DNA from: Bryoerythrophyllum caledonicum
Lineage: Eukaryota > Streptophyta > Bryopsida > Pottiales > Pottiaceae
Direction: 5' to 3'
Length of the DNA stretch: 64,000 bases
NCBI GenBank assembly: GCA_963971425.1
Contig: OZ020518.1
Coordinates: 31,812,770 to 31,876,769, forward strand
A program made the translations under genes and the position numbers. Under the pieces are notes generated by a model. It saw nothing but the letters and a program-made list of their open reading frames with translations, made no database searches and was not told where the DNA came from. How positions within the stretch are numbered: the first letter of the stretch is position 1; each line of letters starts with the position of its first letter. Of the stretch, positions 4,490 to 25,700 are shown in pieces.

Positions 4490-7125
4490 ACAATGTTGTA
4501 TCTCCTTTCTCTATCCAGGATTGTGTCAAGACACTTAGGGCGTCTAAATTCGATGAAGTAGTCGCTTAGATTGACAACAAAATCTCAGTAAAGAAATGGG
4601 AGAGTATTAGTGGTCAGCCGCTTAAAGCAAAGGCTGTAGCCAATAAACTCCGCGTAATTCTATCCAGGATGAATACCTTTGCCGCTCTAGAGAAGGCAAA
4701 GACAATCGCGGATAGGCGCCCTACATCAATTTCAATTGTTTCAGGGGCCAAGATCGATAGCCAGAAGTTGAGCCAAGCTTTGGTATTGTTTACAATTCGA
4801 GGCGCAAGAACAAGCAGAAGCACCTTGCGCAACACATTGTCCGCTTCCCCCTTCAAGAAGCGTTCTTCTGCCAAGAAGCCGGAGAGCTCTTCCAGGAAGA
4901 AGACAATGCTCGTCTCAGAGGAGGAGTTGGCCAATTCGATGGCCTCTGCACTCTAGGAGCTCCCTCATGCGCTCAGGAATGGAGAGACAGTCGACTACAC
5001 CAACGTCCAAGAAATTTCCCAAAATTTCTGGATGGAGTGTTAGGGCTGCTTCTTCCTTGGAGATAGAGAGAAGAAGGTTGAGCTCGACGTCATGAGGCTT
5101 TTTAATGCACCCCCGGAGTGGACAATCCGTGCATTTGAACCTCGGGTCATGGAGGAGTTGATGCATTATTACATCGAAATGCCCGACAAGTCGCAGGAGC
5201 AGACTCTTTGCGTCATGCCCAAGCTTGATGTTATGCCAACAAAGGTTGAGGACATCAGTGACTATGACTTCTATATCATCAACAGCGAGCATAGCGTTGC
5301 AACATCAAAGGCAATGATAAACGGCAACGTCCCGGAGCAAATAAGGAAGCACTTCCAAACCTAACTGTGTTGCATTGTCTGGATGCAATATCTAGAGAAG
5401 CTGAGGAAGATTTCCGCATATTATAATCGCGTAAATCACTTGGTCCAGTTCAAGTCGACGTGGGCAACTAATATCCTCGGCTCTCGGGCTTTGTGGATCC
5501 ACAATGGGAGACCGATGCCAAAGCACTCCGCCGCGGGCATTCGCGGGTCTCACAGGTCAGGCCGAAGAACAACAGTGGAGTCTGCAAATGACAAGAAATA
5601 CGAGGTAAGATTTTCTAATCAAGCTAAGGCACATTAGCTTGACTCGAACTAACGTGCAAGTATGCGCCGTATCTGTATAGTATTGTATTCTCATTCGAAT
5701 TGATTACATTGTATATTCTCTAGTTGCACGTTAGCTCGACTCGAGCTAACATGCAATTATCAGGTTTTGCTTGACTTGATACTCATTATACTCTTATGAT
5801 AAACTTATTCAATCATGTTTCTATTATGCGCAGCTATTTCTTAACGCGGTTCGTGAGCGCTTCGCAATGATCGACGTTGCGAAGAGCCAAGTAGAGCTCA
5901 AGAAAGCCGGAAAGGCGAAGGGGCTCGCGCTTACGGAGGAGGTGAAGATCATCACCGCGTCGGAAGATACCTTCAAGCTCTGGTCGGAGGTCATCACTTC
6001 GGTGGCGCACGGCGACCTCATCAACGTCGATTCAAAACCATTGTCTCGGAGCCACCTCTTGTCCCGGAGCCAAGCCCCCAAATGGTTGGGGGACACTTGG
6101 AACCCCTTGGCAACATGTAGGGTTCGTTGGGATCAATGGGGGTCCGAGACGAATTCCTGCAAGACGATGAAGTTCTTGAGGTATTCTTCTAGCACTTCTC
6201 ACACTCCACTCTCCCCATGACGCCTCCATGTTTGCCTCTTTCGTTCTACGTTGTGTTGACCCGTCGTTGTTAATGAATCTATAGTAATATTGTTCGTTCT
6301 CCTGGCATTTTCGAACCAGGTCTGTGAGGCATCAATAAGTGGTGCCAATAATCTAGAAGAAATACCTAGAGTCCTTTCAGATTACCAGGGTAGGTGGTTG
6401 AATGTTGTGCTGGACCTCAATGAAATTCTATGCACCTATGAGCATGCGTGGCAGGCTAGGGGATTCAGGAACTCTGACGTGTCTATACACTCGGCTTTGC
6501 TGCTGATCAAAGTAGGCCCTAAACTAGTCCGAGTGCGCCTAAGTTGTGCTAAATTCCTCACCAAGTTGTCTAAGTTTGCCATCATCACGATCTCGAGTTC
6601 GATGATGACATCTTCAACCTCGCAGATATGTAAATATCTTTTTTAGCATTGTCCTTCGTGTCCTTTGAGGATCTTTGGTCAGGAGAATTGTGATAGGGTT
6701 CCCGAGCGTAGAGTCGGTACGAGAACAATCTACATGAAGGAATTTGGTACTTAGAAGGACATCTTCTTGAAGATGTTATCGAACCATCTCTTCAATAGGT
6801 TAAGTCGTGAGTATACCCCGACAAATACGCTTGTCTTTGACGATAGCTTGATTAAGCACATGCTCAATTTGCCGGAGAACGTCCTTTTACTTCCATCATG
6901 GTCGTACAATCATGATGGCGCAAGAGAGGATTCTGTACTGCAGGAGGAATTGTTGCCATATCTCTCTGACCTTCATATGTTTCCGGGTGGTCTAGTGCAG
7001 TATAGGGCCGAACATCCCTCGGGTCGGGAGACAATGATCAGAAGACGTATAGTCACTTTGCGATTATCTGGAACGCAATCCAAGCGTCTCAGAATCTCCG
7101 CTCTTAATGCCGTAACCCATTGAAT
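4490..7125 (+). pseudogene. Decayed multi-exon gene with ParB-like region and FCP1-like HAD phosphatase region
   Basis: Plus-strand pieces appear in order. Bases 4600-4950 encode a basic region. Bases 5092-5604 encode a segment with FYIINSEHSVATSKAM, resembling the GQHR-type motif of ParB/sulfiredoxin-fold proteins, ending at a good donor (GAG|GTAAGA at 5604). An exon starts at 5834 after GCGCAG. A further exon after 6320 holds WLNVVLDLNEILC, where FCP1/NIF-type phosphatases have DLDET; the second Asp is Asn here. Bases 6767-7000 continue with TLVFDDSLIKHMLN, like the distal HAD Asp motif. In-frame stops at several points and frame changes show it is not functional as written. Two palindromes of the TTAGCTCGA family sit inside the 5605-5833 intron. 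Linking all pieces into one gene is inference; the family is not one I can name. Confidence 0.5.
5629..5756. repeat. Two palindromes of a co-varied subfamily, inside an intron
   Basis: Copies at 5629-5657 and 5724-5756 share GCACRTTAGCT on the left arm and AGCTAACRTGC on the right. Compared with the 3-kb cluster (ACTTTAG/CTAAAGT), both arms have changed together to ACGTTAG/CTAACGT, so pairing is kept. The 5724-5756 copy has a stem of about 15 bp with one imperfect pair. Confidence 0.8.
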
Positions 7126-10966: not shown

Positions 10967-11270
10967 GGACGGGGCTATTTTGCGAGCGTAGAGTCGCGAG
11001 CGTAGAGCGGTGAGCCTTGGTTTGCGAGCGTAGAGTGCAAAAAAGATAAGATTATGTAGAAAAAGTAAAAGTTTGTGATTTTTGTAACAAGAATAAAGTA
11101 CTAAATGTAGTACGTCTAAGGCCCTATTACCGTGGACTAGGTGGCTTAAACATTGGGTAGGTCATAATATTCTTAAATAATAGATGGACTTCATGTAAAA
11201 AAAAAGAGCTAGTCAACAGGAGGAAGGCCTATGACGGTGGTGATAAGGTTGTCCAATAATGAGAAGATAT
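10967..11270 (+). repeat. Left terminal inverted repeat
   Basis: From GGACGGGGCTATTTTGCGAG onward, about 110 bp match the reverse complement of 25,590-25,700 at high identity. Weaker matches (for example GGCCCTATTACCGTGG and CCTATGACGGTGG) extend to about 11,260. The first 75 bp contain three copies of GCGAGCGTAGAG, a subterminal repeat of the kind transposases bind. Confidence 0.85.
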
Positions 11271-12020
11271 GATTTCTATGGCTAAGAAGATAAGGGAGAA
11301 ATATAGTTGAATGTGTGGACATAGATGCCGGACAGAAAATTGGTTGCGGGCACAGAATTGAGGTGGATAAAGGGAAATGACCGTGAGAAGGACTCTTTTA
11401 GAGGGACAATGTCAAGTATGGATAAGGGCTCCGTATGGGGAAATGGTAAGGGGCACGGCGAGGTACAGGGTGATGGTGTAGGAGTCTGAAAGAGTGAGTT
11501 TACGATAGAACTACGGTTTAGGAAGAGTATGAAGGAGATCGACTTAGGGCATTTGAGTGTTAGAGGGTGTGACAGTGATGGTTGACAGGTGCAGAGAGCC
11601 TAACACCGAAACCCAAAACAACTCTATAAGTGTAGAACCTATGTGCACTAAACAACCATCCTCCCGTCATTTCCATGTGAAATTGAAGAAACTGCGCATA
11701 AATAAAATATTCAGGTGGCCCTTTTAGTCTCACCACAATTTTCATATTAATAAAATAAAATAGACAAACAGCTCAAAAGCATATTTAAGCACCGTAGTGT
11801 TTTAGAAGCAGAATCTAAAGGACTTATTTTATCTCAATCCAAGTGAAACTAGGAGCGTGCATGAAAACATCTAGGTCCTGGTCGAATCCACAAACTATGG
11901 TAAAGATGTAGTAGAGGTGCTTGCAGTAGGTCCAAACACCACGCTTACCTAGAGACTTCTTCGACATCTCCGTGAAGGATGGACAATCACATGATGGGAA
12001 CTGACCAATCGTCAACATAT
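11271..12020. other. Element interior without recognisable gene
   Basis: No frame here has family features. The sequence lies between the left inverted repeat and the 3' end of the minus-strand transposase, and may hold its 3' UTR. Confidence 0.4.
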
Positions 12021-12029
12021 ACCGTGAAA

Positions 12030-15000
12030 CCTTGGAAATGCTACTAGACTATAAAGTAATTATGCAGCCAAGAGCAAGAGGCGGTATCATAAGGATATCA
12101 CAGATCTTCGCAGCTATCGATAGTGCAGAGGCACAACTGTTGTGGTATTCAGTAGTAGGAGCTTTAAGATTCCTGCGGATGGACTTTCCGAATCTCGTAG
12201 TTGGGTGGTCCGAAGGATTGGGAGGTGGAGGGTAGTCCGCAAGGTCCACAGAATCGCCTTCGCCAAACAATTTTTGAGGAGACATCTGAACACGCTCTGT
12301 AAGTCTGAAGCCGCCGCACTCGAGAGCAAATATCTTTGATTGCTAAAATTAGTGCCCATCTTCACCGGCCACTCGTCTGGAACAGGGAGTTTAGAAACAA
12401 TCCGCGGTCGTCGAGGGCTGTGGACACAACGATAGATATCGTCTTTGCAAAAGAAGAACTGCATCTTCTCCATTCTGGTCTTCTTAGAATTGTCCATGAG
12501 GCCACTATAAGTTGGAGCAGCCGTAGGTCGCCTGCTCTGCACAATCCTTGTAACACATCTCTTTCTGCCATGCATGGCAAAGCAAGCTTTTCCTGAGGTC
12601 TTCGGAAGCCGAGCGATGTGCCAGTGCCTCTCGTTGCAAATAGTCTCTAAAACCGATTTAACATGCTACTCAGGAGGCAAAGTAGCCGGAGTCTTAGACG
12701 AATAAACCTCAGCTGGAGCACGCCTCATTTCAGACGGCAAATCATAATCGTTTGTTGTGAGATCAACAATCTTTGGATCGTTCCTTCGTCTCCTAAGTCG
12801 TGGACGGGAGACACTAATCTTGTCAGGGCGATGGGAATCAAATTCAATGCATGGAGGAAGCTACGCTTTCCGTTTCAACGAAACGAATTCTTCTTCACCT
12901 TCTAGGTGAGGATCTTGTGTGCAAAATTATGTTGCACCCAACATTGTGGCGAAAGCTGCTTAAAGAACTGTAGTATTCCCTGTGCGTTGAGCGGTTCGAT
13001 GGGTGGTACGGAGTCGGAGTTCCTCCTTGTCAGGACCAGTTCCGGGATTTTCACCCTTAAAAAACTGATAGTAGGCAACAACCTGCATGAATGCGCGGAC
13101 CATGTCATCAACAGCGGCAACATAAAGATCGTTCCCTCTTTTGCCGGACTGTTGCAGCCATTTGTTGTGGACTATCTCGGCCAAGTTACACAAGGGCATT
13201 TCTGCTAGCTCAACGTCAGACAAATCATGCAATGAGAAAGATTCAGTAGGCATGATTTGGCAACTGGAGTTCAAAGTGCACTCAAAGACTCAAAGTGATA
13301 ACAACACTACAAGGGAAGACGTGGTTCAGCATAGGGCAGTGGCGACAACGCCTTGAGACTGGTCAAGAATAGACACCTTCGTCGTCGAAACGAATGAATG
13401 ATAAGCACTTCGTTGCTCATGTGAGGAGGCGATATCGGCTATGTTTAGTTCCGAGAACAAGCGACTCCAATTGTACTACTATGGGAGGGCAGCCGATAGC
13501 GGCCGCCCTATAATAAGGATAGAGGAAAACTTGGGGGAAAAGGAAGTGCCGAAAAGAAAAGAAAGAAAAAAAAATGAAAGGGAAAAAAACCAAAAGAAAT
13601 GGAAAGAAGATGGAAAAAACCGGGAAATACAAAAGACAATCAATAAAAAGTAATGAATTGTGAATGTAAACATATCGGCAACGAAGAATGAAAAGATTTA
13701 ATTTTGTAAAGAATAGATTGTAAGATTGACGTTGTCAGGCACACTACTAGAATTTGGTGAAAGGAATTAACAACGCAGGTTTTGGTACTGTAGAATGTAA
13801 AATGAACCAACCGAGTACAAAGCAACGTACACTGCTAAAGCCCATCAACACTTTTTAGAATAAAGATATATAAAGAAACATGATTCTAAAGGAACTTACT
13901 AGCTGCATGAATCCGCCCCATTGTCGGTATCTGAAATGCCAGAATGCAAGCCACAAGTCAAGTCTTGGAAGTGCTTCCTCTATTGCGACACTAGAAGACA
14001 ACCACCATGCTCGGATTGCCAAATATCGACTTTGGGCATCTTCCAAAGAGATGGAGTCCTTGTATTGTTTGCAGAGACGGCGGTGTTGGTCCTGAAGGTC
14101 GGCCCTAATGTCTGCCTTAGTGTGCTTGTCGAGTGATTGCATCCAATGAAATAGGCAAGTCCTCTCGCAGTTGTCCATTGGCACTGCGGGGTCGCCCGAA
14201 CCGTACAAAATACGCACCGCATTATAGTTCGCATGAGCTCTGTCCGCCATGAATCCTTTAAAATTTGGGTAAGAGATACCATGCCTCTTTGCAACATTAT
14301 TGAGACTCTTCCAGAAAAGTTGTTGGGCATCAACGTCCTCTGACTGCATATCGCACACAACAATTGTCATGACACGGCAAAATGTCGAATCGTAAACATG
14401 ACAGGCCATGGTGGTTGACTCCTTAACGCGTTTCACGTGGTCAAACATCATCCACGCCTCTTGCAAATCGCCTCCAGGTTGCATTCGCTTTACTAAATGA
14501 ACCCCGCATCTAGGACCAACCTCGGACATCTTGAAAATAAAAACTTTCTTCGTCTCTGTTCCTTGTCCAGGAAAGCGGTTCTCCTGGATGAATGCCCAGC
14601 TACTAGAGCCCCTCAACTTTATTATACTATCCATAACTCCAAATCGTCGCAAGTATCGAAAAGTGGTCACTTCATTCCAAATATTTGGGGAGGTCACCTG
14701 CTTGAACTTGTCCAGAATTGGAATGAGTTCATAAAATGGAAGAACCTTCTGAGGAACACCTTTTGGGCATAATAGTAATTCTCCTAGGTACTCCTTGCTG
14801 GCTTCAAAGACAATGGCTGATCTAGTAGCAGACGGAGTCCACTCAACCTGTTCGCCTATTAAGGTTTGAAGTTTGGCAGATGAGTCTCTATAATTCCCCT
14901 TTTTCACTACATGGCAATGCACACCAAGATGAACGCAAGCTCGTGTCATATGGTTGTTCCCATGGACGTAATAAATCTTTGCAGGGCAGCAGGTAATACA

Positions 15001-16195
15001 AGTGGGAGGGACTTGGCAGATAGCGCATACAACAGTGGAATGTGACGGGGGATCACAACCTGGAAAGAATGGGGACGTGGCACTTCCATCCCACTCAGTT
15101 TCATTCTGCTCTGAGGTTCGATGGACTTGTTTGATATAGTCACAAGCAGGATTACTACATCTTAAGTGGCCAAGACAGACCGACGTTCTAAAAATAAGGT
15201 TGAACTCAGATTTGATATGCGTTGTTGCTATTCGAGTCCATGCGTGGCCATCATCCTTCTTATCCATTCAATAAAGCTGACGAGCCTTGGATGACTGTGG
15301 ATACTTCCCCATCGAAGGAAGTTCGAATATGACATCGCCATCAAATTCAGGAGGTAGGTAGTCAACTTGCTGAATGGAAATTGTACTACAATCTAACTTG
15401 CTTAGAGCTGACTTTGCACCCTTACGAGTGCTAAGAACTTGTAAGCAATGGAGTATACTTGGAATAGATGAGAGAGGAGGTTTAGAAGAGGGAGGCCCAG
15501 TTCCCAGAGACGGGACAGCATGGCAGGGTCTCGAGCTGTTGGGGTTGGTTCGGAATCCAAAGCAGAACTGGGCAGCGTAGGATGGATACACTCATTAACA
15601 GTCGAAGGGGCCGATTGAAGAATCATTGCCGCAAGTTCTAAAGGTGGCTTGGAAGTCAAAAGAGTTGGGTCTGGATAATCGTTTCGAGTAGATATAGTAA
15701 ACTGAAGTCCATCAACGGACCCTATAGATTCCATTGCAATCTTAGATGGGACAGGATTTGTGCACTCACTATCGGAATCGTCACTGAGGAGAATAACCGG
15801 TAGATCGGGAGAATCAGGTTTCACCTTCTGAAGCCAAGGAGTCACATCTGCAGCGGATGTGGAACGTCTAGGGGTTAATGTGTAAGTCACAGTATCAACC
15901 GAAGTAACTATAGATCCATAAACTCGATACCTCCTAGGCTCCAACAACCAAACATCACCCCCTTCACGTTGACAAGATACCTGAGCTACTATATGAGAAA
16001 GCTCGTTTGAGACCGAGATAAGAACTTCCTTCTCCAAGTGCAAAGAGTGCTCTAAAAAATGAAACCGCGAAGCAAGACGACTTCCTGGAACAGTGGAGAA
16101 GCCAGAAGCACCTAGTGGAAATGAAATGGAACTGCTTGACCATCTGAGCTGATTAGAACACAACAAGAAATTATGTCAAAAGGGTCGGAAGCCAT
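12030..16195 (-). pseudogene. Mutator-like transposase with WRKY-GCM1-type zinc finger, broken
   Basis: A likely start ATG is at 16,195 (MASDPFD). The 13,855-15,267 block carries an N-terminal Cys/His cluster (CLGHLRCSNPAC), a second cluster (CAICQVPPTCITCCPAKIYY, then TRACVHLGVHCH), and a DDE-like core with HVYDSTFCRVMTIVVCDMQS, FKGFMADRAHAN and CLFHW, ending at a donor after GGFMQL (GTAAGTTCC on the minus strand). Downstream minus-strand pieces at 12,960-13,274 (EMPLCNLAEIVHNKWLQQSG) and 12,049-12,575 are its C-terminal part. A TGA lies in frame just before the 15,267 Met, and the N-terminal region changes frame between 15,402 and 15,600. It would have mobilised the surrounding element. Family known from WRKY-GCM1/MULE studies; exact exon joints are uncertain. 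Confidence 0.7.
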
Positions 16196-16650
16196 TGCCT
16201 ACAAATGAAAATGAGATGTCTTGAAATTAGAGTAGAGTGAAGGTTGCACTGAATAATAAAAGGAACTTTGACTGAGAACTGTATGTTCATTAAGCCGGTT
16301 AATGTGGTTGTTGAACAACTAATTTGAATAAATGAAGTCACTGATAAATAGGCATTTGGAGGATGGATTTGAAATGGCCTGCAAACAATAAATATGCCGC
16401 CATGTCAATTTCCATATCAACATTTTGAATGCAGATATATACTGAGCAATACATGGCTGGAACACTTTCTACAGCATTAAGCAAAAGAGTTAGTTGTTGA
16501 TAAAATTGGGTGGTGCTTGATGGTTGTTAATACAAAGTGGCGGCTCATAATTATTAGATTGAGATCCAATTATAATCAAATCGTCAGTCCGGAAGGGCCC
16601 AAAAATGTGCAATTAATATTGTCAGCCCCACTTCCTTGTAGACATGCTCA

Positions 16651-16678
16651 CGTACTTGCATGTAGACATGCAAGTACG
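16651..16678. other. Perfect 12-bp hairpin with 4-nt loop
   Basis: CGTACTTGCATG pairs fully with CATGCAAGTACG around TAGA. It lies in non-coding DNA just left of the region of captured gene fragments. A terminal hairpin is a Helitron feature, but the expected CTRR end about 10 bp downstream is not clear. Confidence 0.75.
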
Positions 16679-16816
16679 AAAAATCAATATCTTTAGTTGC
16701 GTCGATTTTAAGCACCTTCTAGAAATGATGCAAATGATATAGATGGATCATATGAGGCTTCAACTTTTAGAGGGTTGCATTGTAGACATTGTCCAGGGTC
16801 AGCTTGATTTGATAGT

Positions 16817-17173
16817 ATGCTAAGGAGGCGTAAGAGAAAGGCTTTGTATTTCACCAACCCGAAACAGTTGAAGAGGTCGAGGCAAATGAGGGAGTTTAAA
16901 TCAAATTTTAGGTTAGAAGACGTTGGAGATACTATTAGAGCACTAGACTTTGAGGCAACAAATTATACTTGTCCAGTAGTGCAGGAAGATCGACAAAGAG
17001 AGCTGCAGAGTTTGAGATTGATTGAAATGGTTTTAGGTCAGCCGGGAAAGCTGACTCCCGAAACGAGCGCAAGTGGAAGCAGTGATGTTGAAGCCGATCG
17101 GGATGCAAATCGAGCTCAATCACAACAGTCTACTCAGGAATCAGGTAACATGACGGGTAACGACGACCAGTAA
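16817..17173 (+). CDS. Unidentified 118-residue frame
   Basis: The frame from ATG 16,817 to TAA 17,171-17,173 starts very basic (MLRRRKRKALYF, KRSRQMREFKS) and ends Ser/Gln/Asp rich with no recognised domain. It lies upstream of the captured gene fragments, on the same strand. It could be an exon of a larger element gene or chance; no family is recognised. Confidence 0.25.
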   Translation: MLRRRKRKALYFTNPKQLKRSRQMREFKSNFRLEDVGDTIRALDFEATNYTCPVVQEDRQRELQSLRLIEMVLGQPGKLTPETSASGSSDVEADRDANRAQSQQSTQESGNMTGNDDQ

Positions 17174-17765
17174 TCAACATGACCTTAGATATGTATATGG
17201 TAACAAAGATGTTGTTTTTAGATGTTACATCTTAATGCCGCACGTTTCGACGTTGTGAAGATCACATATCCGACAACTCATATTGGGTCCCGAAATTTGA
17301 TATTGAAAATTCATGAGAGCTTCTTGTATCAAACACATTTTGAGAGAAGTGACCAGCCAGCGTTCAATTCATCTTGGAAGTGCAAAATATTTTCCGTGAA
17401 ATATCACCGCAAAAGACAATTTTGTAGATGAAGTATTTGACTAAGTCGTTGGACGTGATTGCCGACGCTGTCTGGATGAAGATGACCATCAACAAGTATT
17501 ACTGCCCATTTGCTTCACCCCAGTGAATGAGTTCTTTATCTTATTGCAAAGGATTAGGGTTTGCATAAAGAGAGGTTGCCGCGCATGAGCGACCCTCTTT
17601 TATTGCTCAGTTGTTGTTGTGGCGTTGTGCAGCTATGGAGATGGAGGAAGAAGGAAGAGTGGAGAGGTTAGAGGCCGACATTGAGATGGAGAGCGCCGCA
17701 GTCGCCGTCGCAGGTGCAATCCCGAACCCTGATTTGGTCTTACCTCTAATTTGCAGCCGCCGCCC

Positions 17766-17811
17766 TCCTCGCCATGGCCGTCGTCTTGGCCGACGACGGC
17801 CATGGTGAGGA
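17766..17811. repeat. Hairpin within selenium-binding-protein fragment, copy 1
   Basis: CCATGGCCGTCGTC and GACGACGGCCATGG form a perfect 14-bp inverted repeat around TTGGCC, and pairing extends outward through CTCCTC/GAGGAG. A nearly identical hairpin lies at 20,416-20,465. In the parent family this position corresponds to the conserved Cys-His-Gly (SSCHG) segment, so the left arm can be read as a copy of that codon stretch and the right arm as its inverted duplicate. Confidence 0.75.
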
Positions 17812-18917
17812 GAGTTCGGCCCCCTCCTCGCCATAGTGGATCTACATTGTGGACATTGTGAAGGACCTGCAAGCTCCTGAGGAGTACAAGACTGTGGAGC
17901 CGGACGAGATCTCGTCGAGAACACACTTGGCGTGCAACAAGAATTGCTGAGAGGTTGGATACAACTTTTCTGTCCATATCTCTAACCTCTGCTCTCGGCT
18001 CCGATTCTAATTCGAATCTGAAGTCTTGAAAGATTGAAACCATGGCTTGAATACGAAAGCTAAGTATACTTTCAGAGAATAAATCAGAGTTGATGACTGA
18101 TATTGCAGAGAATTCTTTGTTTGACTTGAATCTCACATTGGTATATTTGTGTTCAATTCGTTCCAGGTGGGAGAAACCGGGTCAGAGCCCGAGGTTCGGT
18201 TACGATTTCTGGTACCAGCCACGGTATAAGACGATGATTAGCTCCTCGTGGAACGCTCCCTCGGCGTTCACGAAGGTTTCAATCCAAGTCATGTTGCTAA
18301 TGGATTATATGGCCAACATCTATTTGTCTACGACTGGCTAGAGGGCACTCTAAAGCAAACCCTTGACCTTGGAAATACAGGTCTTATTCCTCTTGAGATA
18401 TGTCGAGAAGTGAATTATCCGCAGTGGTGGCAGTTTCCGCCTAGTTGCACATGCTCTTCTTTTTTCCGCATACATACATATGATGCCAATTCCAGAGTTA
18501 GTGTGAAAATTAACGTGCAATTGGTCTAGTAGAATTCTTGGGGCAGATTCGTTTTTGGCATGATCCAAGCAAGGCATACGTTGGCGCTGCCTTGAGCAGC
18601 ACTACGGTCCATTTTTTAAGATTGACAATGATACCTGGGATACCGAAGTACTGTACCTGCACAGTTTTACTTTGATTTTCATGATTATGTTGATTGTGTA
18701 GCTTAATATCCAATTTGAGCTTGTTTTTTGAGTCAAAGTGACCATTACTAAACAATGACTATGCACACATATGGATCGTTCAATGGCATGTTTCCATCAC
18801 AATGCCTGCATTGAAGGTGCAGAACTGGATACTGCCGCAAATGCCAGGACTCATCACCGATTTCCTCATTTCACTTGATGACCGATTATAGTACTTCTCC
18901 AATTGGTTGCATGGTGA
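17770..18917 (+). pseudogene. Captured selenium-binding protein (SBP1/methanethiol oxidase) fragment
   Basis: Four colinear plus-strand pieces match plant SBP1 in order: WIYIVDIVKDLQAPEEYKTV at about 17,840-17,900; a block beginning WEKPGQSPRFGYDFWYQPR at about 18,170 and, after a +1 shift near 18,275, LKQTLDLGNTGLIPLE to about 18,400; DPSKAYVGAALSS near 18,560; and [20 protein letters not shown] near 18,825-18,880. Intron-like gaps separate them, so the copy was taken at DNA level. Stops and frame changes prevent function. The normal protein is a soluble enzyme of about 480 residues that oxidises methanethiol. Confidence 0.75.
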
Positions 18918-18987
18918 ACAATTCTTGTACAGTTTACATATGGACAATTTATTTCTATCGTACGCTTTAATTCTAAGTTGTGAATTG

Positions 18988-19396
18988 GATGGCGCTCGAC
19001 AAAGCTCTAATTGGCCAGGGCTATGGGTTGACGGAAACTTGTATTGGTGGAACGTTTAGTGAATGGGATGATATATCCGTTGGCCGTGTTGGGCCTCCGG
19101 CGCCTCACTGCTTCATCAAGGTAGACTTTCAGTCATGTATTTTTGGTTGCATATATCTTTTATATGTTTTATAAAATATATGGTATTCTTATGCATATTG
19201 AGTGCACAAGGTATTCCTCGTCCTTGATGGTTGTGTTTGAGATTGACTAGCATCTCTGGATTTGCAGCTGGTTAATTGGGAAGAGGGCAACTACAAGATA
19301 ATTGGCGATCCACCAAGAGGAGAGATAGTTGTCGGTGGACCTACTGTGACGTTAGGTTACTTTAAAAATCAAGAGAAGACAAACGAAGTTTTCAAG
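18988..19396 (+). pseudogene. Captured long-chain acyl-CoA synthetase fragment, two exons
   Basis: Exon one runs to 19,120 ([20 protein letters not shown], then [14 protein letters not shown]) and ends in AAG|GTAGAC. Exon two is 19,268-19,396 after TTTGCAG ([20 protein letters not shown], then [15 protein letters not shown]) and ends in AAG|GTATGA. GYGLTET is the conserved AMP-binding motif, and the spacing matches plant LACS8/9-type enzymes, which activate fatty acids with ATP and CoA. Only about 90 of about 700 residues are present, with splice sites intact and no adjacent LACS exons. Confidence 0.8.
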
Positions 19397-19558
19397 GTAT
19401 GATCCGTATCCTGAAATTTTCCTCTAAAATGGTGTCTGCTTCATTAATATGCATTCTGTGATGCATAACCCCCCCATACAACATTGAGGCAATATTTCCT
19501 CATTTTGCTTGAGAGTCCATTCCTTTAAATCCGATCATCGTTTTCTTATGGCAGGTAC

Positions 19559-19712
19559 ATGAAGAGGTTAATCAATGACCTCTCAAGGCCCAGTGTGCGT
19601 GTTAACTGCGGAGAGCGCTCTCAAGCGACCGCCGTTGTCAAGTTGTTGAAGGAGGGAGGCACATTGTTGACATACGGCAAGAGCTTGCCACAGGAAGTGT
19701 ATTTACTAGGTA
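19559..19712 (+). pseudogene. Captured fragment resembling mitochondrial trans-2-enoyl-CoA reductase
   Basis: After an acceptor-like TATGGCAG the frame reads RVNCGERSQATAVVKLLKEG, then GTLLTYG, ending at a donor-like CTAG|GTATTT. This pattern (Asn-Cys, then an ATAVVKLL helix, GGTLxTYG) matches the cofactor-binding half of MECR/ETR1-type NADPH enoyl reductases. It directly follows the acyl-CoA synthetase exons, so two unrelated genes have been joined. Assignment is by pattern from one exon. Confidence 0.5.
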
Positions 19713-19839
19713 TTTACATTTGTACTACGTTCTGTCATTGTCGTGGATGCATGAAAAGGCCGTCTAATTAAATCTTTGGTGCTATGTATGTGGTGCCATG
19801 TGTAGTTTATCCTCTTCACGCAATGGGGGGCTGGAGCCG

Positions 19840-19935
19840 GCATTCAGTGTACCGACCATCCTAAAAGTAGTCAAGGTTGTTCTTGCAAACGGCTTCGTTG
19901 GAAGCGTTCTTTCTGATTATTTTTGGTACTAATCT
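19840..19935 (+). pseudogene. Possible captured membrane-transporter exon
   Basis: One frame reads [20 protein letters not shown], then [11 protein letters not shown]. It resembles a transmembrane helix of SLC35F5-like (EamA-type) solute carriers. It is too short to be sure and is listed because it lies in the same series of host-gene scraps. Confidence 0.25.
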
Positions 19936-20379
19936 AAGTCCAATTCTACACCTCCACTGTTGATTTCGTGATATGTTTGCTTCATGTGAGTATTCCTATT
20001 TCATACCTAGATTGTACCAATACCAGCACATGTGACTGTTGAAGATTTATTTGGTTGATGCTTTAGATTGTTCTGACAATATTCATGCTCAGATAATGGT
20101 CATGTAAAAAGTTGAGAGAATTCTCTTCTTGTTCCTTCAGCTCCAAGACAAAAATTTAAGACTCTCACTGCAGTTCTCAGTGGTATTGGCCCATCAACAA
20201 GGTGCCCATTGCTATATTTCTAATTATCGAGGTTTGAAACCCCATTTTCATTTTTCGCTTGGATACGTAGGGATTAAGTTTACTATGAATGTATGATGCG
20301 TTTGAAATCCTTTATTTAAACTTGTACCTTATGAATGTTGAAGCGTTCACACTTTTTGCTACTCTCTTGAACAGGAAAT

Positions 20380-20500
20380 GGAAAGCCCAAACACACCCGT
20401 GGAGATGTCGGGTGCCCTCCTTGCCATGGCCGTCGTCTTGGCCGACGACGGCCATGGCGGGGAGGATTTATGTCTATGTTGGCCGCCTCATTGTTTTCTG
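20380..20500 (+). pseudogene. Second selenium-binding-protein scrap with the same hairpin
   Basis: HTRGDVGCPPCHG followed, after the hairpin, by GRIYVYVG corresponds to the conserved SSCHG...GRIYVVDV region of SBP1. The 14-bp arm hairpin at 20,416-20,465 is nearly identical to that at 17,766-17,811, so the SBP piece was duplicated within the element or taken up twice. Confidence 0.5.
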
Positions 20501-20607
20501 ATGATTTCTAGTCCTTGTATTACAAGTCTTTGCAGCAGTTTTGTTGCGCCCTTCTCACACTCCTCTAACAATTTTCCTCTTCAAGCAACGAGAATTCACT
20601 CGCGCCA

Positions 20608-23600
20608 ATGAGTGGCACGCAATCAAGGGGTCGTCCAGACTCATCGCAGCCCGACATACTTGAATCAGGTACGTCAATGTCGTGCCTGTTTCAAACAATT
20701 TTGCTCATGTTTTTATACCTAAGGCGATCCTTGCTAACTTATTTTGTGATATGTGACTTGATCCTATGGCAGCTGATGAGGATGATGCAACTCAAGACGA
20801 AGCAGATTCTGAGGAGCACGGAGAGATGTCTGCAGAGGACCTTCGAAAGGTGATGCAACTCAAGACGAAGCAGATTCTGAGGAGCACGGAGAGATGTCTG
20901 CAGAGGACCTTCGAAAGGAGATGGACAAAATGGTGGTTAAGGAGTCTGTCAATATAAATGTTGTACTTGACAGGCTCCGATTTAAACCAAGGAGCAAGTC
21001 TTAACTAAATATTCCTTTATGCAGGATGAAGGCACTTGCAGTTATGAGGCCATACCTCAAGAACGACGTCATTGCTTTGAGCACCCATTTTGATGCCACT
21101 GGCTACATGGATGGACATGAGGTGTTTTATGTTGCCCTTCAAGACAATGAAGGAAAGACTATGGACGTCACTCCGAGTGACATTGAGAAGTGGAGTCAAG
21201 CTTGGAAAAACGCCAATGATGCCTTTGAGCTGGAGCTGCAGAGAGATAGCGCATGGAAGCATTTTTTGGGGAAGATGTTTTTTGTGTGGGATGGCAACCA
21301 TCGACTTCCAGCATGGCTGCCAATTATTAATCAAGATCATGGTGATGATCTAGCGTGGCACTACTCCGTGGAGTCTATCGTGTTGGAAGTGGAAGGTCAA
21401 GTTGGACCTCTCCAAATGGCACTTCACCAAGTCAACTGGTAAATATTGTTCACAGTCTGCCTTTCATTATTCTTGGATAACATTTTCCTCATAACTTGGT
21501 GTTGAGTGTGCAGGAGATATCAGACCGGTCACGTCAAAACCAATCTCGTGCACAAACTCTATCGCCTTCACGGAATTGCTGGTCTGCCTCTCAAGTACTT
21601 CGAGAAACTTGTCTCGTCTCAAGAGATTGCTGATGCAGAGAAGAAGTACAAGTTGAATCCAAATACGTGGTACACACTTACTATTGATTCACTCATTGGG
21701 ATTCTATACCAGGTCAGTAATACTTTTCTCTACCCCTCAGAATTTGTTCATTTCAATTGTTTTTGCATCAACATACATCCGATTTATACAATTTGATGTC
21801 CACTCGGCACTCCCCTGGGGCAGCCGTTGTCAGCTGCCTCAACTAGGTACTTGTTGGTTGACCAGTGGGATTCCTTAGGAGAGTCTACAAGCCTCCTTGC
21901 CTGCGCATCTCGACTTCCCTTCCTCAATTTTCTACCCTTTCACTGTCTATGTATTGATTTATTTGTTGTCTTATTATTACAGCAACAACTTGGTGATGCC
22001 GTGGCGCTTGCTACTCGAATGTTTGAAGAGAAGTATCCAGAAAAGTCATCGGAGTGGACAACCGTTAAGTTGCACAAGTCAATAGGTAAGGCGGTGAAGC
22101 AAGTGACGAAGGAGATGCATAACGAACTGAAGAAGCAGCTACCGATTGCAGATTCCAAGCATACACCTCAGTTCCTTGAACAAGTGCGAGTTCATTATGA
22201 GAGTCATGAGGATGACCGAGAGATGTCCCAAGAAAATCTTTGGTACCTATCAACCTCAGCAATGAACGCCGCCTCGAAGGTGAAGTGGCTGGAGGGTTGG
22301 AACAAGCCGGCTTCCTTGCGTGCTGCTGTTAAATTTCCTAAGGGAATATTTACAGACCATAGCTTTCCTGAGTGGCTCACAAAGGCGACTTGGTGGGCAC
22401 AGGTTTGTTTCAAATCCCTATGCCATCACATTCTTCAGCCATCAAACTCTTAATTTCTAAACAAATCCTCTGTGTCATGTTAATATAGCTGTGGTCCGAG
22501 GTGAAGATCTTATTTGACTCTACGTTATCTGAGCTCGGCAAATTGATTGACTATCACCCAGCCGGCGAGAGTTCCATTCCAACAACTGAAGATTGGGTGG
22601 AAAGGATGCGAATTCAGCTATGGGACTTGGCGTTTCATAATGAGTTGGGTTCAAAAGGAGTGCACAAGAACCGTGTAGTGGAGTTGCAAGAAGGACTTTC
22701 AGAGGCCGTCACTCGGGTGTTGTACCGATACTTCTTCTACATCTTTTACCCGAGGAATGCATTATCGAAGACGCTTGCATTCTTCGAGAGCTATTTGGAT
22801 CGAGATTCTGACAATTGCATGATCACAGATGTTATCGCCAAGAAGTGGGCCCATCAACACTGGCAGAACTATGGGTGGTACCTGGATTGCCCATTGACAA
22901 AGCCGCCGTTGTTCGACATTCCGCTCATGAACCACATCCAACCCAAGTTAGTTGGTAACAAAGTTTTGGTTTTGCCTTCAAAGGCAGCAGCGGTAGTGAA
23001 GGAGCCTCGAGGATCGAAGAGGAAGGCGGCAGCTGAAGAGAAGGCTAGGATGGAGAAAACTGCTGCGGAGGCCAAAGCCGCATCGGAGGCTGAAGCTGCT
23101 GCCACATTGAAGGCTCTGGCAGTTGAGGCGGAAGCAAGTATGAAGCGTCGTGCTGAAGCTACTATTGCGGAGATCATGGCGAAGCAGGAAGCCCTTTATT
23201 CAGCCTCTAAGGCAGCGGATGTGGATGCGGATATGGAGATCATGGACAGAGCCCACGACACCGTTATGGCATCTGTTGCTACTCGGACCCTTCATTCTTC
23301 AACGTCACTGTCGCAAGCTCTCTCCAGTCCCTTGTCTCTTGTCACGACTACATTGAAGAGAAAGGTGGCCATCAATAAATCAGCTGATCTCTCTGCTTCA
23401 TCATATCCCGCTTCGGTCTTAGTGGTACGGACGAGCATCCGGCAAATGATGGAGAAACTACCAGAAGTTCACGAGTGCCTCACGAAGCTTAACAACTTTG
23501 GACTCTAGGTACGGTCCTTCTCATGAAACTAAAATCTTGATATTTACACCTTTCTTTCTCATTTGATGTTGTTTTACCTCCTCTGCAGGTGAAGAAAGAG

Positions 23601-24698
23601 ATTGGGAGCGCCACACTCTCGCTTCACTGCAAACACTTTGGATTTGCATTGATTATGGCAGATGTGAAGAATGGCCTCTCCGTTCCAGGAATCTTCGTGA
23701 ATGCAACTCAAATTCCACCCTGGAATGAGTACTCAGTTCAAGATGTGGATTACTTGTTTGAATTTGCGGAGAATTTTCTCCACAAAGAAGGTGCGATTCT
23801 GGTGTTTGCCCTTCACGTTCCTAATATCCGAACAGACGTCTTCTCATACGCTGCGGCCTATAATTTGAAATTGCACCGAGAGTAGTGGGGAATCAACGAC
23901 CTTCCGCTTTCCTCTTATACAAAACCAGGAGTTAAGGTTAGGTTTACTATCCAATTCACGGTGTCTTCCCTCTTTTTCACAATTCATTACTAAAGAGCTC
24001 TATTTCTAATTTTATTTGTTGTTCATTCTCTAACTCCCTTTCTAAACTATTTCAGTGTCGTCGATTTCGTATTCTTTTCTTCATCCACAATGCGATGGAA
24101 GGTAATCGCTTCTTGATTGCTATGGATGAAGATCTCGTGGAGTTTGACATAGGGGTCTCAGAAACGGACGTCCTCTTCAACTTTACCTCTTCTGAGTCTC
24201 AATCCATGAATGGTTCCGTTCCTTGGAGAGGCGCCCGTGAGAAAAACTCGGTCTTCCTCCAGATGCTCATCGCTGCACTGACGAAGAGTGGAGATGTGGT
24301 CCTTGACACCACGGCGACAGTTGGTAAATTGTGTTGCACCGTGTTCGTATTCTCTATTTCTAATTCTAGTTTGATTGCCCTTAACAATTGTTTTCTGTCA
24401 CTAGGAAACTCCATTCGGGCTTGCACAACCATTGGTCGTCACATTGCAGCCCTTGAGGATGACTCCCTTGTCTTTGAAGCAATGCTCTCTCAATTCAAGA
24501 CTTCTGAGCAAGCCGTTCACGTCCAAGCTTCTACTTTAGCGGCTCGGGCTGCACCTGATATTGACGTGCCCATCCGTCAAGTCACTCGAAGAAACCGATT
24601 GAGTACGTACGTTCTCATTTTATTTTCTTTTCATTTCGTTGAGCTGTTTTTATTTTTCTTCATATCCACTGATCTATGTTATGCTACTCCAGACTGAT
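20608..24698 (+). pseudogene. Multi-exon ParB-like / N4-N6 DNA methyltransferase gene of the element
   Basis: Exons with good splice sites: 20,608-20,668; from 20,773; about 21,025-21,441; 21,514-21,712; 21,983-22,401; 22,490-23,510; 23,589 to about 23,935; about 24,056-24,322; from 24,405. The 21-kb exon has the ParB/Srx-like motif FFVWDGNHRLPAW. Middle exons are unfamiliar, then an Ala/Glu/Lys coiled coil (22,990-23,230). The end is methyltransferase-like: TQIPPWNEY (motif IV, DPPY/W position with Ile for Asp), REKNSVFLQMLI, GDVVLDTTATVG (motif I position), then RACTTIGRHIAALEDD. This motif IV-before-I order is that of beta-class enzymes. A TAG at the 23,506 exon end, another TAG after LHRE at about 23,883 and a 68-bp duplication near the start show that it is damaged. 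Confidence 0.55.
20783..20918. repeat. Perfect 68-bp tandem duplication
   Basis: Unit 20,783-20,850 is repeated without change at 20,851-20,918. Because 68 is not a multiple of three, the acidic N-terminal reading (EEHGEMSAEDLRK) is thrown out of frame after the first copy. Perfect identity suggests a recent event, younger than the point mutations elsewhere in the element. Confidence 0.9.
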
Positions 24699-24876
24699 GG
24701 CTGCTGCCGTGTCACCGGTGAGAGACTTTGTCATTTTTCCATGGGATGCAGAAGTCACAAATTTACAAGCAACCGTATCATCACCAAGTGATTCTTTACC
24801 AATTCTGCGTTTTGACAGATGTGTTCGTAGATTTATTGATGATGAGGCAGAATTAGACTTCGACATTCTATCATGA

Positions 24877-25380
24877 ACCTCCATTAATTCTAATTTCTTG
24901 CACATTTGAAGCCTCACTTCTCCTACTTTTGACTTACATTTTCTCTTCACTCCATGGTCTTAAACATTGAATACATTGCATTTTTTCTATGTTGTCAATA
25001 CTGTCTTTACATGGTAAAGTCCTTCATTCTAAACCGTCTTTGTCCCTTCTTTATATCATTTTAATACCATTTTGTAAATTCAAAAGAGGTGTTGAATAAC
25101 TCTTCTTGTGCACTCTACTTATAACAGTCCACTTTGTCCTCTCTTTGGTTATATCCATTGAAAAAATGTTGGTTTCTAATGTAATATTTGCAAAATTGAA
25201 TTCCTACTTTGATATTGTTTATATCTAATGATACCCTTTGGTCACCTTAAGTTCACGAATGTAATTTTACTTACTTTAAATTTGCAGTATCCTAAACCTA
25301 AATCCATTATCTCCTTTTTATAAATAGCAAATTCAGATTTAATTTCAAATCCAACTTTGATCCCTTACTTTCATGTAAGG
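24877..25380. other. Element interior, AT-rich, no gene seen
   Basis: Between the last methyltransferase exon and the right inverted repeat I find no recognisable frame. It is pyrimidine-rich on the plus strand and may hold a 3' UTR. Confidence 0.4.
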
Positions 25381-25700
25381 AATTGATTTTTTCTATTCAA
25401 AATTCGGCCACGGTCATAGGGTAATGTAACCCATGTCAGTCCTAAGCCCTACTCTAATTTCATTTGAAGTGGCAAACTAGTATATCATGACAACATTTGA
25501 ATCTCCAAATGTGGTCCACTTCCCACGGCTATAGGACCCTATCTTAAACATTGACTTCCAATTTTCCTTTCACTTTTACTTACAAGTTCCCTAAACTTTT
25601 ACTTTTTCTACAAAATCTCATCTTTTTTGCGCTCTACGCTCGCAAACCAAGGCTCGCCGCTCTCTGCTCGCGGCTCTAGGCTCGCAAAATAGCTTTCCCC
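25380..25700 (-). repeat. Right terminal inverted repeat
   Basis: The reverse complement starts GGGGAAAGCTATTTTGCGAG and follows the left end through the GCGAGCGTAGAG repeats and the run GTAGAAAAAGTAAAAGTTT, then more weakly to about 25,400. Confidence 0.85.

Follow-up and report, generated by a model that had tools for sequence, protein, structure and literature searches.

Several described systems resemble parts of the gene examined here. Retrotransposons are known that encode DNA methyltransferases, namely DIRS elements with Dam-like enzymes and LINE, DIRS and Gypsy elements with DNMTs (PMC5890265). In bdelloid rotifers the host gene N4CMT, a chromodomain fusion, silences transposons (PMC8885841). 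The MULE accessory genes mudrB, vanB and vanC are each kept as a second gene beside the transposase of the same element, and in the available portions of the two papers they are not described as methyltransferases or ParB relatives (PMC6446971, PMC13317346). Bacteria and phages contain ParB-methylase fusions, and for one of these, Bce_0392 of Bacillus cereus, DNA nicking has been reported (PMC5512222). Among the top-ranked open-licence literature, we found no title or abstract on a ParB-methyltransferase carried by a transposon of a eukaryote.

The window, a stretch of 64,000 nucleotides from Bryoerythrophyllum caledonicum, contains a copy, now dead, of a MULE-like DNA transposon with two divergent genes, the second of which we call the accessory gene. 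As in the methyltransferase retrotransposons, the mobile element encodes a DNA methyltransferase domain of its own, but theirs are Dam-like or C5 enzymes, whereas here an element with terminal inverted repeats (TIRs) carries a beta-class amino-methyltransferase fold. N4CMT is likewise a bacterial-type amino-methyltransferase taken up by a eukaryote; unlike it, the accessory gene is transposon-borne. With the bacterial and phage fusions the predicted protein shares an N-terminal ParB-like motif and a C-terminal adenine-type methyltransferase, but it has about 500 residues between these parts, gives no match to the ParB profile and belongs to a eukaryotic transposon. From the beta-class enzymes (PF01555; DpnA, CcrM, phage enzymes) it keeps the permuted order, IV before X and I, and in the subfamily that we call C nearly the whole profile is matched. 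The window's subfamilies differ in having D[VL]K[DN] for DPPY and ATVG for xGSG, and the gene differs in being spliced, with some 680 residues ahead of the methyltransferase part. Transposon-borne DNA methyltransferases and MULE accessory genes are thus known kinds; what is probably new is a TIR element, probably of the cut-and-paste type, with a bacterial amino-methyltransferase fold, which is present in three diverged subfamilies (A, B and C).

Ends, copies and transposase of the element

The element and its first gene were delimited as follows.

10967..25700: whole transposon, 14,734 bp, from the TIRs and the target duplication
10967..11087, + strand: left TIR, 93 of 101 bases matching the right end
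25580..25700, − strand: right TIR, an inverted match to the left end
13858..16175, − strand: transposase gene, main exon ORF 13858-15267 plus upstream ORFs, identified by its relatives

The TIR arms are 114 nt long and 88% identical, and a 10-bp target duplication, ATCACATCGT / ATCACGTCGT, immediately flanks the element. MULEs are defined by target duplications of 8-11 bp and long TIRs (PMC6446971), and the element has both, in keeping with the preliminary description of the carrier as MULE-like. Ten-base-pair target duplications were found at four sites, perfect at three besides the window and with one mismatch at one site. The TIR extends over about 100 bp in the window, and the matches are shorter in the copies L028, L036 and L038. 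The right end is supported by 20 further copies together with the window: their outer flanks have no common sequence, the 21 right flanks being mutually unrelated while all 210 of 210 internal pairs are related. The window's copy lies in a Ty3/gypsy-like pol reading frame, with a match to RVT_1 (2.1e-35) to its left.

The window's transposase has one stop in its matched stretches and 248 relatives at E ≤ 0.001, the best being 69% identical over 97%; in L028, L036 and L038 the matched stretches are free of stops. The gene is a candidate for a MULE DDE transposase: its ORF and ten relatives gave no match above a cut-off in Pfam. C-x2-H is a trait of MULE transposases, and of the relatives listed, 86 of 120 contain a C..HW stretch.

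In the source assembly, 40 scored places, from 141 candidate places, match the accessory gene. Thirty-one copies were fetched; 26 of them extend to the right end, and three are open across the seven exons of the accessory gene described below. Transposase and accessory gene occur together in all five copies examined (window, L028, L036, L038 and L052). The one subfamily C copy checked for this has the gene beside a related transposase, a 781-aa ORF with 38% identity to a relative from metagenomes. Homologues of the accessory gene are thus found inside transposons, and not always outside them as ordinary genes. Of the 40 transposase matches that were scored, nine, counting the window's own, have one of the 40 scored gene matches no more than 20 kb away, where 0.15 would be expected; all nine pairs are divergent and on the same side, and they are nine of the 14 matches whose coverage starts at the first bases of the query. 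No scored gene match lies near the other 31, so the accessory gene may be dispensable.

An accessory gene with a seven-exon frame and a ParB-like motif

As the preliminary description had proposed, a multi-exon gene lies inside the element. Seven exons with GT-AG borders join into a single frame of 955 codons (21026-24602), both other phases being full of stops, and the gene itself begins further upstream, in a 5' exon that precedes the ParB-like one. All of the following are on the + strand.

20608..21025: 5' region of the accessory gene, disrupted by a duplication and a stop, from comparison with seven copies
21026..21438: exon with the ParB-like stretch FFVWDGNHRLPAW, its motif kept between A/B and C
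21514..21712: exon continuing the N-terminal region, from GT-AG borders and frame
21983..22402: exon of the middle region, from GT-AG borders and frame
22489..23508: long exon with a conserved middle domain, a charged coil-like stretch and a terminal stop, with metagenome relatives
23589..23936: exon with the methyltransferase motif IV position (FALIMADVKNG), IPPW and one in-frame stop, from frame and alignments
24056..24323: exon with the motif X region and the start of motif I (VVLDTTATV), from frame and profile matches
24405..24602: exon with the remaining motif I/II region and the C-terminal tail, from frame and a profile match

The joined frame contains every motif listed in the preliminary description: FFVWDGNHRLPAW, the coil (a charged, coil-like stretch), PPW, GDVVLDTTATVG and RHIAALEDD. 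The reading of PPW as motif IV did not survive (see below). Two stops interrupt the frame, at 23506-23508 and 23883-23885. Since these stops are joined by damage in the 5' part, namely a further in-frame stop at 21002-21004 and a 68-bp tandem duplication at 20783-20918, the window's copy of the gene is dead. Among metagenome proteins the long exon has 26 relatives, with E values from 4.3e-57 to 4.6e-24. The complete 955-aa translation matched nothing in a protein search whose candidates were proteins of similar length only, and scans of viral and genome contigs confirmed no stretch. An AlphaFold model of the middle exon had a mean pLDDT of 57.

GxHR in a strand-helix setting is the ParB/Srx active-site motif. 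VWDGNHRLxAW is the same in all four sequences aligned from A, B and C; some broken copies vary at single residues. The ParB profile (PF02195) matched neither this region nor any of the six frames of the whole genome. Searches of phages with the region gave no match and searches of plasmids gave two, at E 7 and 10. One PDB search found nothing, and another gave two entries (E 0.07 and 0.16) whose names suggest no relation. The AlphaFold model of the exon had a mean pLDDT of 38, and in three neighbourhoods of phage methyltransferases no feature was named as a ParB partner. The ParB label is accordingly putative, its basis being the conserved motif.

Comparison of the open copies L028 and L036 gave a dN/dS of 0.143 over 954 codons, which argues that the accessory gene is a maintained gene of the element. 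By part, the ratio was 0.039 for the ParB-like exon and 0.20 for the methyltransferase part. Constraint on the methyltransferase part is weaker, because its dN/dS was 0.44 between L028 and L021 (both of subfamily A; L021 has two stops).

Methyltransferase relationship and active-site changes

The C-terminal part is related to beta-class N6-adenine/N4-cytosine DNA methyltransferases, as had been suggested at the outset, and the C-terminal exons do not lack such a relationship by profile. A profile built from seven phage-collection enzymes gave the window's copy 39.4 bits, compared with 6.5 for the best of 2000 residue shuffles; the seven were picked from matches to the same query, a selection that favours this score. 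Single-sequence matches of the window copy to Pfam and PDB were weak (13.8 bits in Pfam, under the cut-off of 26.7), queries from subfamilies A and B matched nothing in Pfam, and PHROG matches for A/B reached 2.8e-4 at best. Subfamily C matches Pfam N6_N4_Mtase (PF01555) at 2.7e-8, with 34.5 bits against the cut-off of 26.7, and with exons joined by eye the match spans profile positions 2-219 of 221. It also matches phrog_67 (3.7e-9), and its best match among solved structures is to the N6-adenine methyltransferase DpnA (5.8e-4 over 63 residues). Eight places in the genome match PF01555 above the cut-off, all as open 153-aa frames.

The alignments and the profile span in subfamily C give the motif order IV, X, I of beta-class enzymes. 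In a profile-profile comparison (Neff 1.2), the motif X/I region was matched with 94% probability and the N-terminal part of the domain with 0.1%. The motif IV region of A/B had no significant match of its own there. Its placement in A/B comes from the multiple alignment, and statistical support is confined to the motif X and I region. The preliminary description had taken PPW as the motif IV position, with Ile for the catalytic Asp. Alignment with the phage-collection enzymes and subfamily C instead identifies IMADVKNG, some 17 residues before PPW, as motif IV; therefore the Asp is retained, and PP[YF] is what the window's subfamilies have lost. This position reads AD[VL]K[DN]G in the window, L028, L036 and L038, in place of the catalytic [DNS]PP[YFW]. 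Motif I reads ATVGN in A/B and ASTGA in C, without GxG, the first Gly being missing in both. In subfamily C, NASTGAS stands against GSGST, with Ser for the first Gly, and motif IV is a near-canonical DQPF (L051, L052), with Gln for the first Pro.

Catalytic and SAM-binding residues are thus lost in open A and B copies. The window's copy had been called probably inactive; its stops and duplication bear this out, but the active-site loss is not decay of one copy, as the same changes occur in three open copies from two subfamilies. Because open copies share these changes, self-methylation is unlikely for A/B, and the earlier suggestion that the element marks or protects its own DNA finds little favour for the window's family. 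The methyltransferase part of A/B is probably incapable of methyl transfer. Subfamily C keeps DQPF, so we do not extend the catalytic loss to the gene family as a whole, and C might still methylate.

A proposed role for the accessory protein

We propose, with moderate confidence, that in the window's family the accessory protein is a non-methylating DNA-binding helper of the element. Gene one supplies the transposase. Gene two is transcribed divergently, and its predicted product, roughly 1,000 residues long, starts with a ParB/Srx-like region, continues through a conserved middle domain and a charged coil, and ends in a fold derived from a bacterial-type methyltransferase. This protein may work in trans on the DNA of its own element: the methyltransferase fold, probably without methyl transfer in A/B, would grip DNA and perhaps oligomerise, while the ParB-like region would perform a conserved biochemistry such as nucleotide-dependent DNA binding or nicking. 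The outcome could be an aid to transposition or an escape from silencing, like other MULE accessory genes.

An active self-marking enzyme, by which C (and ancestrally all subfamilies) would write 6mA or 4mC for protection or anti-silencing while A/B decayed with other functions kept, is a less probable reading of the sequences. It draws on the near-canonical DQPF of L051 and L052, the Pfam match above cut-off, the DpnA match and the eight open frames, whereas the replaced first Gly of motif I and first Pro of motif IV in C speak against it. A divided version, in which the C enzyme would still write 6mA or 4mC on element DNA as a private epigenetic mark and the A/B protein would be its non-methylating reader or binder, seems to us similarly unlikely. 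By analogy with VANC, the sequence-specific anti-silencing factor of Arabidopsis VANDAL elements, the protein might instead bind short motifs of its own family and remove or block host methylation; MULE accessory genes do act so (PMC13317346, PMC6446971). The selection on the accessory protein would also suit this role, which we nonetheless regard as doubtful.

It is very improbable that the gene is a Pack-MULE passenger captured from the host. Pieces at 18000-20200 of the window copy, which we take to resemble fatty-acid CoA synthetase, would fit such capture, and capture is frequent in MULEs (PMC6446971). However, the gene is common to A, B and C, with the ParB-like parts of C and B 35-39% identical, it stands beside the transposase in five of five copies and is under selection, and no host copy was seen among the 40 scored of 141 candidates. 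A reading of the motifs as chance or misread features of non-coding sequence, to which the weak single-sequence matches of the window copy might have pointed, was rejected on the spliced 955-codon frame, the open copies, the shuffle test, the dN/dS and the Pfam match of subfamily C.

Returning to the helper that we favour for the window's family, the contrast between near-canonical motifs in C and lost catalysis with kept selection in A/B makes a mark-first, binder-later reuse testable. The accessory gene may also bear on the origin of reported plant 6mA and 4mC; 4mC has been reported from Marchantia sperm.

The accessory gene and its element

The accessory gene of the element is a selected element gene with a methyltransferase (MTase)-derived end, whose catalytic and SAM motifs have been lost in subfamilies A (window-like) and B. 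In the window copy it lies at 20608-24698 on the + strand, where seven exons with GT-AG borders join into a single frame of 955 codons with two in-frame stops; both alternative phases of the joined exons are closed by dozens of stops. The exons, placed by borders and frame, are:

21026-21438, + strand, exon 1
21514-21712, + strand, exon 2
21983-22402, + strand, exon 3
22489-23508, + strand, exon 4
23589-23936, + strand, exon 5
24056-24323, + strand, exon 6
24405-24602, + strand, exon 7

The multi-exon gene of the preliminary description, the motifs quoted from it and its stops are all present. Because a 68-bp tandem duplication (20783-20918) and an additional stop (21002-21004) damage the 5' part, this copy could not yield a complete protein. 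In metagenomes the long exon has 26 relatives (E 4.3e-57 to 4.6e-24), and related genes therefore exist in other sequence sources.

The ends of the element form a terminal inverted repeat (93 of 101 bases identical; outermost matched bases 10974 and 25693), ATCACATCGT and ATCACGTCGT adjoin it on its two outer sides, and its flanks are parts of one gypsy-like pol frame (left, RVT_1 at 2.1e-35; right part read by eye); we therefore place the element at 10967-25700, inserted in a retrotransposon. A search of 5.8 billion proteins with its transposase ORF (13858-15267, - strand) found 248 relatives at E <= 0.001, the best matching at 69% identity over 97%. Neither this ORF nor ten of its relatives matched a Pfam family over the cut-off, and the element is accordingly called MULE-like by inference, from its long inverted ends, its 10-bp duplications and the C..HW stretch found in 86 of the 120 relatives listed. 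The ends and duplications agree with the MULE-like element first described, and the transposase adds no Pfam family to that assignment. A passage of PMC6446971 gives the MULE target-duplication range as 8-11 bp.

Copies, pairing and selection

Using 712 bases of the long exon as query, we searched the assembly (894 contigs, 437,360,962 bases in total) and scored 40 of 141 candidates; all 40 matched, some partially, and two on C12 may be fragments of a single copy. We fetched 6.5 kb at each of 31 of the 39 places outside the window, and similarity extended as far as the element's right end in 26 of the 31. Among 21 sequences with a locatable end motif (20 copies and the window), no pair matched at E 1e-5 in 400 bases of outer flank, and 210 of 210 pairs matched just inside the right end. 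Each of L028, L036 and L038, copies whose far side was also fetched, carries the transposase along with the gene between two element ends, bordered by a perfect 10-bp duplication; the duplicated target differs in each, and these homologues lie inside transposons.

With 40 of 1213 transposase candidates scored alongside the 40 gene matches, 9 of 40 transposase matches (the window included) lay within 20 kb of a scored gene match, where 0.15 would be expected; all nine were divergent and on the same side. The nine belong to the 14 matches whose alignments begin with the first bases of the query. The remaining 26 start at query position 98-106, are 91-94% identical and have no scored accessory-gene copy within 20 kb; they seem to be a separate, uniform element family sharing only part of this transposase exon. 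In the third subfamily, C, an open 781-aa ORF for a transposase, with 38% identity to a metagenome relative, lies within the 6.9 kb upstream of one copy, a stretch that stops short of the element ends; it is divergent from the accessory gene, as in the window element. Between the two lies a 154-aa frame (5044-5505, + strand, of the upstream stretch L055), possibly an exon of host origin or a third gene.

L028, L036 and L038 are also the three of the 31 fetched copies that are open over the seven exons; of the rest, two copies carry a single stop and three carry two, with a maximum of 69 in the most damaged. Where their DNA matches, subfamilies A and B share about 74-80% identity. Between L028 (A) and L036 (B), both open, approximate Nei-Gojobori counting gave dN 0.109, dS 0.763 and a ratio of 0.143 over 954 codons: 0.039 in the ParB-like exon (dS 1.43, near saturation), 0.085 and 0.099 in the middle parts, 0.344 in the coil and 0.198 in the MTase-like part. 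Further pairs gave 0.149 (L028-L038), 0.150 (L021-L036), 0.265 (L036-L038) and 0.215 (L028-L021; 0.44 in the MTase part, L021 having two stops).

The MTase-like and ParB-like parts

The METHYLTRANSFERASE (MTase) part of the window copy matched PHROG DNA methyltransferases at 3e-4 to 5e-4, Pfam N6_N4_Mtase at 0.056 (below cut-off) and, in the PDB, CcrM at 0.49. Against a profile of seven phage-collection enzymes, chosen among matches to the window query in a way that favours a match, it scored 39.4 bits (maximum of 2000 shuffles, 6.5); the open copies L028 and L036 scored 38.6 and 31.0 bits (shuffle maxima 7.7 and 4.2). In further searches, queries from subfamilies A and B had no Pfam match and PHROG matches of 2.8e-4 and 0.0087 at best. 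The stretch matched comprises motifs X and I, which alone were supported in a profile-profile comparison (probability 94%, E 9.6e-8).

Eight genome matches to N6_N4_Mtase exceeded the cut-off, and the four fetched (L051-L054) all belong to subfamily C, which is defined from them. Identity of this subfamily to L036 is 35-39% across the ParB-like region and 37-39% across the region of motifs X and I. Its MTase query, two reading frames joined by eye, matched almost the full length of the N6_N4_Mtase profile (2.7e-8), as well as phrog_67 (3.7e-9) and, over 63 residues, the N6-adenine enzyme DpnA (5.8e-4), which together with the window's profile score upholds the N4/N6-type likeness noticed at the outset. 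Since the four copies are 97.5-98.8% identical across several kilobases, subfamily C has probably moved recently.

In subfamily C (L051 and L052 inspected), motif IV is DLVIIDQPF and RIPLWN or RIPPWN comes some ten residues after it, so the window's IPPW is this second conserved spot, and PPW, formerly read as motif IV, is ruled out as such. The window's motif IV is FALIMADVKNG (FALIMADVKDG in open A copies, FDLIMADLKDG in open B copies); PP[YF] is absent and the Asp, first read as Ile, is retained. Motif I reads ATVGNS in A and B and ASTGAS in C, where phage enzymes have GSGST or something similar; the first Gly is gone. Because open copies under selection carry the same changes, the motif loss belongs to the family, and decay of the window copy is ruled out as its cause.

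VWDGNHRL, with an Ala-Trp two positions on, is identical in the four aligned sequences from A, B and C, in a layout that we take to resemble ParB/Srx domains. The region was not recognised by Pfam, PHROGs or NCBIfam, in the PDB, in phages and plasmids, or by a ParB_N profile over the whole genome, and a one-sequence AlphaFold model was unusable. Of the ParB-like region first described, the shared motif stands and a library or PDB match does not; we treat the label as a lead.

Possible role and precedents

The accessory protein would act in trans on the element's DNA. Its ParB-like part may be the working part, since that exon is under the strictest constraint, and the MTase fold, probably dead in A and B yet under selection, would most simply be a DNA-binding or assembly module. 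For subfamily C, with its DQPF and its ASTGAS, a real and testable rival is that the protein is still a methylation writer. By analogy with MULE accessory genes, the protein could serve integration or escape from silencing: passages of PMC6446971 and PMC13317346 describe mudrB as needed for integration and vanC for escape from silencing. An excerpt of PMC5512222 describes Bce_0392, whose ParB domain is joined to an adenine methylase, as able to nick DNA.

Transposon-borne DNA methyltransferases (Dam-like in DIRS; DNMTs in LINE, DIRS and Gypsy) appear in an extract of PMC5890265, and part of PMC8885841 describes a bacterial amino-MTase taken up by a eukaryote, rotifer N4CMT. Among the papers listed in our literature searches we found no report of a ParB-like plus methyltransferase gene in a eukaryotic transposon, in keeping with the novelty proposed for the plant version. 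As these themes are known and their combination is unreported as far as we found, we regard the window gene as a new combination on known themes.

Inside the element, at 18000-20200 on the + strand, are pieces that we take to resemble the exons of a spliced gene for a long-chain acyl-CoA synthetase. This stretch has no match longer than 60 bases in L036 or L038 and just 162 bases in L028; it may have been captured by, or inserted into, only the window copy or its close kin. Two GC-rich 51-bp hairpins, 94% alike, lie on either side of it (17762-17812 and 20414-20464), and L028 and L036 also have hairpins like these. At 3-2450, + strand, an open 816-aa retroelement-like frame matches RNase H (7.6e-12) and, over the cut-off, PCIF1_WW (2.1e-8), a cap-methyltransferase-associated family.
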